From Crocinitomicaceae bacterium (GTDB taxonomy: Bacteria; Bacteroidota; Bacteroidia; Flavobacteriales_D; Crocinitomicaceae): a stretch of DNA of 64,000 bases. Shown piece by piece: positions 37,968 through 41,059 of this stretch. The stretch's first letter is position 1; each line of letters opens with the position of its first letter. The stretch spans positions 20,434 through 84,433 of the forward strand of contig JAQXCN010000045.1 in the NCBI GenBank assembly GCA_029251865.1. The letters are read 5' to 3'. Position numbers and translations under genes: made by a program. The notes under the pieces were generated by a model. That model saw nothing but the letters and a program-made list of their open reading frames with translations. It did not search any database and was not told the origin of the DNA.

Positions 37968-39221
37968 ATGGTTGAATACGGTAAAATACTTCTTATAGCA
38001 ATGCCTGCATTTTTGGTGCTTGTTATACTTGAAAAGCTCTATGGGTATTGGAAAGGAAATGATACGGTTCCCTTAGACGACGCTGTATCAAGTATGAGCT
38101 CTGGGATGACAAATGTTTTAAGAGACGTGATGGGCTTATCCATTGGAATTGTTTCTTACCAATGGCTTTACGCAAAGCTTTCTTTATTTTCGATACAAAA
38201 TGAGTTTATAGTCTATGCCATTGCGTTTATAGTTATAGACTTTTACGGTTATTGGTCTCATAGGTTTTCTCATAAGATTAATTTTTTTTGGAACCAACAT
38301 GTAATTCATCACTCAAGTGAAGAGTTTAATTTGGCATGTGCTCTGCGGCAACCGATCTCTGGGATAGTTAAATTCTTTACTTTTTTACTCATTCCGGCTG
38401 CCATAATGGGTGTTCCCCCTGAGGTCATCGCAATTGTACTTCCCTTGCATTTATTTATGCAGTTTTGGTACCATACCAGACATATTGGAAAGCTTGGAAT
38501 CTTAGAATATATTCTTGTAACGCCCTCTCATCATCGTGTACATCATGCAATCAATCCCGAATACCTGGATAAGAATCTTAGTCAGGTATTCATCTTTTGG
38601 GACTTTCTTTTTGGGACTTTTCAGGAAGAACGCGACGATGTGCCTGCTGTTTATGGGATATCAAGACCAGCTGGCACGCGAAATCCCTTTAAGATTAATT
38701 TTCAGCATGTATTTATTCTTATCAAAGATGCTTGGCGATCAAACCGCCTGGTTGATAAACTAACTATATGGTTCAGGCCAACAGGGTGGAGGCCTGAAGG
38801 GTTTGAGGAGCGTTATCCGATTAAAAAGATAGAGGATGTTTTTGCTTTTCCTAAATACAAACCTAGACTTACGAAAGGAGAATTGTTCTGGAGTGTATCT
38901 CATTTATTTGTAGTCATGTTCTTTCTTTTAGATCTTTTTGCAAGGCTTGGCTCTTTGTCTTTTATGCATGTTTTGGTATACGGAATGTACGTTTTTCTTA
39001 CGATTTATGCGCTCACAGATCTTATGGATAGGCACAAATGGAATTTTATTATCGAGATCATAAGAATTATTGCTGCCGCATCAATTTTTTACTGGCAAGG
39101 AGATTGGTTTGGTCATGGAATTTTACCATTTATTGTCCTGTATCATGTGCTGTCATTCCTTGCTTCAGTATGGGTTCACAGAAGGCTTGTTCAGAATGAT
39201 GCATTAATCATTTTTGAATGA
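37968..39221 (+). CDS. Alkylglycerol monooxygenase (AGMO/TMEM195)-like fatty acid hydroxylase superfamily protein
   Basis: A 417-residue multi-pass membrane di-iron hydroxylase. The histidine boxes are His98 and His102 (WSHRFSHK), His111/114/115 (NQHVIHHSSEE) and TPSHHRVHH further on. From memory of human AGMO, the segments HHSSE..N...ALRQ, LEYIL.TPSHHRVHH, DKN......WD..FGTF and a GW.P stretch match that subfamily rather than generic sterol desaturases. The C-terminal 120 residues carry extra helices, again as in AGMO. AGMO cleaves ether lipids with tetrahydrobiopterin. The next gene, overlapping by 4 bases, is a lysoplasmalogenase, which acts on related lipids. Substrate specificity is inferred; a generic hydroxylase remains possible. 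Confidence 0.82.
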   Translation: MVEYGKILLIAMPAFLVLVILEKLYGYWKGNDTVPLDDAVSSMSSGMTNVLRDVMGLSIGIVSYQWLYAKLSLFSIQNEFIVYAIAFIVIDFYGYWSHRFSHKINFFWNQHVIHHSSEEFNLACALRQPISGIVKFFTFLLIPAAIMGVPPEVIAIVLPLHLFMQFWYHTRHIGKLGILEYILVTPSHHRVHHAINPEYLDKNLSQVFIFWDFLFGTFQEERDDVPAVYGISRPAGTRNPFKINFQHVFILIKDAWRSNRLVDKLTIWFRPTGWRPEGFEERYPIKKIEDVFAFPKYKPRLTKGELFWSVSHLFVVMFFLLDLFARLGSLSFMHVLVYGMYVFLTIYALTDLMDRHKWNFIIEIIRIIAAASIFYWQGDWFGHGILPFIVLYHVLSFLASVWVHRRLVQNDALIIFE

Positions 39222-39886
39222 TTGGCCGATGGTTTATTAAATTTTTTTTTGCGTTTTACTTGATTCTTCTTTTTTTAGAGTGGGAGTATTTTGCATTTTA
39301 CTTCAAACCATTCCTAGTGCCATCATTGCTTTTTTTATTTATTGGAAATAGTTCGTTTTTTAGTAACACCAAACTTTTGTTTGCTCTATTCTTTTCAACG
39401 CTTGGGGATATATTTCTAATGGGAGAAGGTTCCCTGTTTTTCTTACTTGGATTATCTTCATTCTTGATTGCTCATTTGGTGTATATCGCTCTCTTTTATT
39501 ACCTATATAAGCCAATAAAAATAAACGTGGGAGCCATTATTTCATTTTTGGTACTTATTATTTTTGAGTCATTATTACTATCTTTTCTTTGGCCGTATCT
39601 CGGAAGTCTTTCTATTCCTGTTTTTGCTTATGCTACGGTTTTACTCCTTATGTTTTGGTTTTCCTTATTCGCAGTAGCGCGCAATGGTGAATTAACTTCT
39701 GGATTTATAGTTATCGGTGCTTTATGCTTTGTTTGTTCTGATTCATTACTCTCGATACGCTTGTTTGTTCGTGAATTTGAAAAGGCACATTTTTTAGTGA
39801 TGTTAAGTTATTTAGTAGCTCAATATTTAATAGTCTCGGGCGTACTTGATCAATCAAAAAAAACCAAGTCAAGCCCAATAAAGTAA
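39218..39886 (+). CDS. YhhN/TMEM86-family lysoplasmalogenase
   Basis: A 222-residue membrane protein with about eight transmembrane helices. The family's conserved acidic residues are visible: Asp64 in STLGDIFLM and Asp175 in CFVCSDSLLSI. KPFLVPSLL near 30 and FLIAHLVYI near 83 also fit. Family members (TMEM86B in animals, YhhN in bacteria) hydrolyse the vinyl-ether bond of lysoplasmalogen to a fatty aldehyde and a glycerophospho-alcohol. It overlaps the AGMO-like gene by 4 bases, which implies co-translation and a shared lipid substrate class. Confidence 0.83.
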   Translation: MIGRWFIKFFFAFYLILLFLEWEYFAFYFKPFLVPSLLFLFIGNSSFFSNTKLLFALFFSTLGDIFLMGEGSLFFLLGLSSFLIAHLVYIALFYYLYKPIKINVGAIISFLVLIIFESLLLSFLWPYLGSLSIPVFAYATVLLLMFWFSLFAVARNGELTSGFIVIGALCFVCSDSLLSIRLFVREFEKAHFLVMLSYLVAQYLIVSGVLDQSKKTKSSPIK

Positions 39887-39907: not shown

Positions 39908-41059
39908 ATGTCAAATAAGAAAGGAGTTGCAATTCTTGGTTCAACCGGTTCGGTTGGGATTACTGCTTTTGACGTCATTACCTCTTTTCCGGACCATTTT
40001 GAATTAGAGGTTCTTACGGCATCATCAAATGCTGATCTCCTAATTGAGCAGGCGCTAAAATCACGACCGAATAGTGTTGTCATTAGTGATGCGTCTCAAT
40101 ACAAAAAAGTCAATGACGCGCTCTGGAAAGAGGATATTCATGTTTATACTGGTAAAGAGGCGGTTTGTCAGGTTCTTGAATCTCAACATATTAATTTAGT
40201 TTTTAATGCGATTATCGGAATTGCAGGTATAGCGCCTACAATTGCATCCATTCATGCGAATAAACATATTGCACTTGCAAATAAAGATTCACTTGTTGTT
40301 TGTGGAGAGTTTGTAACAAGAAAAAAAAAAAAAAAAGGGGTTAATATCTATCCAGTGGACCCCAGTCATTCTTCTGTTTTTCAGTGTTTAGTGGGTGAAT
40401 TTCATAACAAGATTGATAAACTTTATCTCACGACTGATGGAGGTCCTTTTTACAATCAAACCACCACGCAGTTAAATACTTTACTGAAAGAAAAGAGTTT
40501 TAAAAAAGGCGACTATGCACCAAAACAATATGTTGATTTATCATCTATGATTTACGCTGGGTTTAAGGTTGTTGAGGCCAAGTGGTTATTTAATTTAAAG
40601 CCAGAACAAATAGAGATTTTCATTCATGAGTCTGCCGTGATTAATGGTTTGATAGCATTTGAGGATGGAAGCGTAAAGGCGCAGATGGAGGATACTAATT
40701 TGAAGCGCTCTGTTCAGTTTGCGTTGACCTATCCGCAACGTTTTTCTACCAATTTGTCAAAGTTGAATTTATTGGAGCAATCGAATTTATCTTTTGAGCG
40801 ACCTGATAAAACAAAATTCCCAAACCTGAATCATGCATTAGAAGCACTAAAAAAAGGCGGCTCATTTTGTGCGGCACTTAGCGCATCAAATTCTGCAGCG
40901 GCTGAAGCTTTTTTGCAGGGAAAAATAAAATTTTCAGAGATAGCCGTGATTAATGAATCTGTTATGAACAGTCATAAAAGTAATATTAACCGTAGTGTTG
41001 AAGATTTTCTTTTAGCTTACGATTTGGCCTATGAAAATGTATCAAAAATGATTAAATGA
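39908..41059 (+). CDS. DXR-family protein lacking active-site residues (probable pseudoenzyme)
   Basis: A 383-residue homologue of 1-deoxy-D-xylulose-5-phosphate reductoisomerase. It is full length and keeps the NADPH loop LGSTGSVG (10-17), ALANKDSLV and the EAKWLFNL region. The catalytic residues are changed. Where family members have PVDSEH, it reads PVDPSH, so the metal-binding Glu is Ser153. ASGGPF is TDGGPF (Asp177). The HPNW loop is replaced. The SASLMNKGLE motif reads LSSMIYAGFK, losing the phosphate-binding Ser, Asn and Lys and the second metal Glu (Lys220). DXR chemistry therefore looks impossible. A 16-A tract at 40321-40336 lies in frame. A canonical dxr should exist elsewhere. It overlaps the next gene by 4 bases (ATGA). 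Confidence 0.85.
   Translation: MSNKKGVAILGSTGSVGITAFDVITSFPDHFELEVLTASSNADLLIEQALKSRPNSVVISDASQYKKVNDALWKEDIHVYTGKEAVCQVLESQHINLVFNAIIGIAGIAPTIASIHANKHIALANKDSLVVCGEFVTRKKKKKGVNIYPVDPSHSSVFQCLVGEFHNKIDKLYLTTDGGPFYNQTTTQLNTLLKEKSFKKGDYAPKQYVDLSSMIYAGFKVVEAKWLFNLKPEQIEIFIHESAVINGLIAFEDGSVKAQMEDTNLKRSVQFALTYPQRFSTNLSKLNLLEQSNLSFERPDKTKFPNLNHALEALKKGGSFCAALSASNSAAAEAFLQGKIKFSEIAVINESVMNSHKSNINRSVEDFLLAYDLAYENVSKMIK
40321..40336 (+). repeat. In-frame run of 16 A within the DXR-family gene
   Basis: Sixteen consecutive A followed by GGGG encode Lys residues after TR near residue 138. Such tracts are prone to polymerase slippage, which would shift the frame in this gene. Confidence 0.95.

Follow-up and report, generated by a model that had tools for sequence, protein, structure and literature searches.

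Animal AGMO (TMEM195, EC 1.14.16.5) requires a free sn-2 hydroxyl and is described as refusing vinyl ethers (PMC3617469). By mutagenesis of the human enzyme, nine histidines and six other residues were found to be essential, and Glu137 was assigned to tetrahydrobiopterin (PMC3617469, PMC7911779); exchange of Glu137 for alanine raised the Km for the cofactor 18-fold (PMC3617469). The bacterial YhhN protein that has been studied cleaves the vinyl ethers of lysoplasmalogens, is reported not to act on ester lysolipids, and likewise requires a free sn-2 hydroxyl; according to the same study, the human and Legionella YhhN proteins behave similarly (PMC9052158). In the human members of this family, TMEM86A/B, eight residues were tested by alanine exchange, and most were crucial (PMC11994398). 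Both AGMO and YhhN give aldehyde products (PMC3617469, PMC9052158, PMC9131029). Because both enzymes need the free sn-2 hydroxyl, and because AGMO refuses the vinyl ethers that YhhN cleaves, the two activities are complementary. A third point of reference is PRUB680 of Pseudoalteromonas rubra, an AGMO-like bacterial enzyme that cyclizes prodigiosin (PMC7484904, PMC6667630).

Our literature search, which extended to few subscription papers, returned no description of a hydroxylase-YhhN gene pair, and no text naming lysoplasmalogenase together with sterol desaturase, or YhhN together with hydroxylase. Where alkylglycerol monooxygenase, bacteria, and lysoplasmalogenase are named together, the excerpts available handle the enzymes separately. 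Here, we describe such a pair in a Crocinitomicaceae bacterium, within a 64,000-nucleotide stretch of DNA (referred to as the window).

Results

The window carries two directly consecutive genes on the plus strand. The first (37968..39221) encodes a 417-aa AGMO-like membrane hydroxylase, assigned by PF04116, residue mapping, and an AlphaFold model, and the second (39218..39886) encodes a 222-aa YhhN/TMEM86-family (lysoplasmalogenase-like) protein, assigned by PF07947. Both open reading frames lie where the initial annotation, made from the sequence alone, had placed them, and the 4-base overlap that it described between the hydroxylase stop and the YhhN start is the ATGA at 39218..39221 (plus strand). 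Downstream, dxr (1-deoxyxylulose 5-phosphate reductoisomerase, identified by Pfam; 39908-41059) begins 21 bases beyond YhhN, with which it may be cotranscribed. Upstream of the pair are a hemD-like gene (Pfam), two genes that look hemA-like and hemC-like by sequence, and a gene for a 1148-aa protein without a Pfam match. The genome to which the window belongs comprises 2.38 Mb in 86 contigs and contains two PF04116 genes, the window hydroxylase and one more.

The hydroxylase scored 94.2 bits against PF04116 FA_hydroxylase (cut-off, 31) and 249.6 bits with a profile built from nine animal AGMOs; animal AGMOs were collected by a database search with a human AGMO sequence as the query. We mapped AGMO positions by alignment to the animal proteins, following the human numbering of PMC3617469 and PMC7911779. 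All nine AGMO histidines (human 132, 136, 145, 148, 149, 201, 221, 224, and 225) are present in the window protein, as H98, H102, H111, H114, H115, H169, H189, H192, and H193. They form histidine box 1 (H98xxxH102, codons at 38259..38273), box 2 (H111xxH114H115, 38298..38312), and box 3 (H189xxH192H193, 38532..38546), with the ninth conserved histidine, H169 (human H201), at 38472..38474, all on the plus strand. Five of the six further essential residues are also kept, AGMO Q162, D233, N235, W243, and D244 aligning with window Q128, D201, N203, W211, and D212. The exception is Tyr236, whose place is taken by L204 (38577..38579, plus strand); this position is variable even in animals, since the coelacanth AGMO (P0360) has Phe there. 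At the place of the pterin-binding Glu137, the window protein has K103 (38274..38276, plus strand).

The initial annotation had also proposed a C-terminal membrane extension, which the AlphaFold model (mean pLDDT, 88.9) bears out: in addition to the helices of the catalytic part, it has four more within residues 303-416. PF24858, the Pfam model for the AGMO C-terminus, reached 21.3 bits in the window hydroxylase, below its cut-off of 28.3; precomputed annotation lists this domain for some close relatives (e.g., P0007 and P0009). The full AGMO residue set that had been ascribed to the protein is therefore not complete. It is like animal AGMO in the nine histidines, the five conserved residues above, a similar length, and the four C-terminal helices, and unlike it in having Lys for Glu137 and Leu for Tyr236, in the sub-cut-off PF24858 score, and in its placement in a bacterial clade. 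Judged by alignment, the hydroxylase is AGMO-like, by which we mean likeness and not identity as AGMO. OlsE, the ornithine-lipid hydroxylase, shares the superfamily of the window protein, and its model (NF052566) scored 61.6 bits over residues 15-232, far under the curated cut-off of 475.

The assignment of the second protein to YhhN/TMEM86 was confirmed by a PF07947 score of 129.3 bits (cut-off, 25.6) and by the eight residues tested in TMEM86. TMEM86A K43, G81, D82, H104, G182, S189, D190, and Y213 correspond to window K30, G63, D64, H86, G167, S174, D175, and Y198, a correspondence set by spacing and family conservation, independently of an aligned TMEM86 sequence. The published spacings D82-H104, G182-S189-D190, and D190-Y213 are matched, and each of the eight residues is conserved in all or all but one of the rows of a 34-row alignment. 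The structure model has eight helices (mean pLDDT, 91.8). In PF07947 membership, the eight-helix membrane model, and the eight tested residues, the window protein is like TMEM86A and TMEM86B (EC 3.3.2.2) and the YhhN proteins of Legionella and Mycobacterium. For characterized bacterial YhhN proteins, a role in guarding the cell from lysolipids of the host is discussed (PMC9052158, PMC9471318), whereas the window YhhN is coupled to an AGMO-like hydroxylase.

We placed the hydroxylase in a quick maximum-likelihood tree of 103 of the 159 collected rows, from which two trait columns were left out. The window protein belonged to a 47-row clade of bacterial proteins (SH-aLRT 99), and six animal AGMOs formed a separate group (SH-aLRT 100). 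A further bacterial set, AG1, consists of 25 rows, 23 of them in one group (SH-aLRT 94) and two placed elsewhere in the tree. Scores against the animal AGMO profile ranged from 277 to 364 bits in AG1 and reached at most 272 bits in the remaining 127 bacterial rows. No supported node of the tree unites the window protein with animal AGMO, and an AU test rejected neither a grouping of the animal enzymes with the window clade (P = 0.573) nor one with AG1 (P = 0.609). The kinship with AGMO proposed initially thus becomes membership in a bacterial clade that may or may not be sister to the animal enzymes.

Glu137 is present in 17 of the 47 window-clade rows and 10 of the 25 AG1 rows and is therefore optional in bacteria. 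Among the 16 tree rows outside all named groups, 15 lack Q162. Several hydroxylases without Q162 (L100, L177, L179, L186, L187, L188, L190, and L193) nevertheless carry Glu where AGMO has Glu137, an observation of possible relevance to the statement of PMC3617469 that no other proteins with the motif have this residue.

The pairing first noticed in this single window recurs in the phylum, Bacteroidota, to which its nearest named relatives also belong. The hydroxylase (E values to 1e-30) and PF07947 served as queries against 199 genomes of the window's order, and PF07947 and an AG1 hydroxylase (E values to 1e-35) as queries against a phylum set of 296 genomes. Matches on one contig and strand, no more than 400 bp apart, were counted as adjacent; the hydroxylase matches in both sets take in shorter, less AGMO-like proteins. 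In the order set, hydroxylase matches occurred in 95 genomes, YhhN in 62, both in 57, and adjacent pairs in 24 (21 from AG1, the window pair, and two of a short hydroxylase group). The corresponding numbers in the phylum set were 76, 54, 43, and 16. Across the union of the sets, the genes are adjacent in 38 of the 98 genomes with both families, counts that come from related genomes and are hence non-independent; the window genome (G000) and G009 have adjacent pairs in both sets. The other 60 genomes, including a congener of the window organism (G177), carry both families apart. As a negative control, we compared the hydroxylase with PF00351, which was adjacent in none of the 39 genomes with both; the two shared a contig in three, at least 1.1 Mb apart.

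On the tree, no fewer than three groups of hydroxylases include paired members: the window clade, AG1, and a group of short proteins (G052 and G130). Both gene orders occur, with YhhN first in three genomes (G052, G130, and G406). In each of the 31 hydroxylase-first pairs that were measured, the hydroxylase stop has a candidate YhhN start no more than 17 bases away, and the genes often overlap. Protein distances of the partners are correlated (r = 0.78 over 33 pairs), also within the 21 AG1 pairs (r = 0.86), and in neither case did any of 5,000 permutations reach the observed value. The hydroxylase and YhhN partners thus diverge in parallel, in pairs that, like the counts above, include related and non-independent genomes.

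The frequency of pairing differs between the groups. In the tree set, YhhN adjoins 21 of 25 AG1 rows vs 4 of 42 locus-derived window-clade rows, and the paired state changes at least seven times over 70 tree rows, gain and loss being indistinguishable. Of the window-like loci with names, 80 in number, nine adjoin a YhhN gene, and every one of these nine is titled Flavobacterium; a tenth Flavobacterium locus (L009) has no adjacent YhhN. In the other 71, YhhN was not seen within the stretch examined, some stretches ending near the gene. Inheritance is patchy within the window's genus: of 21 genomes, two carry a window-type hydroxylase, and YhhN occurs in these same two. In the second of them, G177, separate contigs hold the two genes, and the next gene after the hydroxylase is murB-like and on the opposite strand. 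That the same two genomes have both genes, split in G177, suggests co-retention even where the pair is broken.

Other neighbors were also seen. In several AG1 genomes (L149-L153 and L144), the pair adjoins genes of ~104-110 and 260 aa; in L150 these encode DUF4286 and rRNA adenine dimethylase proteins, the second of which is also present in L144, and the other loci were matched by size only. Full-length AGMO-like genes also occur on plasmids, at L198:4001-5808 (Pseudomonas aeruginosa pF076) and L202:4001-5817 (Delftia pKV29), and each overlaps a 196-aa hypothetical gene by 4 bases. The 196-aa protein is not YhhN by Pfam, one copy having a weak match to DUF6962 (E = 0.007); its gene may be another coupled partner of AGMO-like hydroxylases.

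Some pterin genes, which the initial annotation had tied to the AGMO assignment, are present. The window genome has a pterin-4a-carbinolamine dehydratase family gene (PF01329) and two PTPS-family genes, one of them at L195 (contig 9, 14221-14613), and no aromatic amino acid hydroxylase (PF00351) was found in it. By its sequence, the L195 gene looks like animal PTPS, and the frames around it are presumably phytoene synthase-, isopentenyl-diphosphate isomerase-, flavin reductase-, and photolyase-like. A reduced pterin is a possible cofactor of the hydroxylase; plain use of tetrahydrobiopterin is argued against by Lys103 at the place of Glu137. Also present in this genome is a gene of the PF01884 (PcrB/GGGPS) family, at L197 (contig 17, 22648-23295), whose product scored 109.8 bits. 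Given this PcrB/geranylgeranylglyceryl phosphate synthase family gene, the organism may make prenyl-glycerol ethers of its own.

Discussion

On balance, we favor the view that the pair forms a bacterial module for lyso-ether lipids, each enzyme breaking the ether bond at sn-1 and releasing a fatty aldehyde. The gene pair itself is observed here, with its overlap, its recurrence, the conserved residues, and the parallel divergence of the partners; we infer its substrate, metal center, cofactor, electron source, and biological role. A phospholipase would first free the sn-2 position of an ether lipid. On 1-O-alkyl lipids, the hydroxylase would then hydroxylate the carbon adjoining the ether oxygen, and the resulting hemiacetal would give a fatty aldehyde and the glycerol head; on 1-O-alkenyl lysolipids, YhhN would hydrolyze the vinyl ether to the same kind of product. 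Since AGMO and the known YhhN both depend on a free hydroxyl at sn-2, the pair would cover both classes of lyso-ether lipid. The bacteria might benefit by feeding on ether lipids that other organisms make, or by ridding themselves of lysolipids that damage membranes. This view is favored by the recurrence of the pair against a negative control with no adjacency, its presence in several hydroxylase groups and in both gene orders, the close spacing, the correlated distances, and the conserved AGMO and TMEM86 residues. Against it count the 60 genomes with both families apart, the 71 window-like loci where YhhN was not seen in the stretch examined, the replaced Glu137 and Tyr236, the unsupported link to animal AGMO, and the negative search for an aromatic amino acid hydroxylase in the genome. 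We put forward only tentatively the more specific proposal of a dedicated ether-lipid-cleaving operon, made up of an alkyl-ether oxygenase and a vinyl-ether hydrolase, that was put together or retained with several divergent hydroxylase lineages and in which the oxygenase of the window's lineage has dropped the animal pterin contact and either uses another reductant or desaturates for YhhN.

The main caution against an ether-lipid reading is, by analogy, PRUB680. It and the window hydroxylase are both bacterial and AGMO-like, a likeness drawn from the published description of PRUB680 and not from its sequence, and its substrate is prodigiosin, not an ether lipid (PMC7484904, PMC6667630). The window hydroxylase could similarly oxidize a pigment or lipid peculiar to these bacteria, with YhhN hydrolyzing a related lipid, and the many AGMO-like genes without YhhN alongside (71 of the 80 window-like loci, in the stretch examined) fit such a role. 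However, the bacterial YhhN that was studied is reported to cleave lysoplasmalogen vinyl ethers but to leave ester lysolipids alone (PMC9052158), the window YhhN has the catalytic set, and the pairing recurs across distant hydroxylase groups. We therefore consider a non-ether substrate unlikely.

A relay between the partners appears more improbable again. Here, the hydroxylase would be a 1'-desaturase that converts alkyl to alkenyl lysolipids for hydrolysis by YhhN, and because the genes are tightly coupled the intermediate would stay close at hand. The genes are directly consecutive and often overlapping, the AGMO-critical Glu137 and Tyr236 positions are altered in the window hydroxylase, and di-iron membrane oxygenases of its superfamily are known both to hydroxylate and to desaturate. 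Yet many YhhN genes have no adjacent hydroxylase, and the plasmanyl desaturase that is known is a member of a different family (PF10520). Still a little less probable is turnover of the cell's own ether lipids rather than foreign ones, e.g., products of a geranylgeranylglyceryl-phosphate-synthase-like enzyme. The PF01884 family protein encoded in the genome would suit this role, but we know of no prenyl ethers among the substrates of AGMO or YhhN.

The activities of AGMO and YhhN were already known separately, as was a bacterial AGMO-like prodigiosin cyclase; what is added here is the recurring hydroxylase-YhhN pairing. If the two enzymes do cleave lyso-ether lipids together, the pair would be a bacterial module with a natural partner, offering material for assays and structures. 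Such a module would show how bacteria making no plasmalogens deal with ether lipids that come from animals, protists, or algae. A testable function would also be gained for many bacterial genes labeled sterol desaturase family protein, and the recurrence of YhhN genes in such bacteria would be easier to explain.
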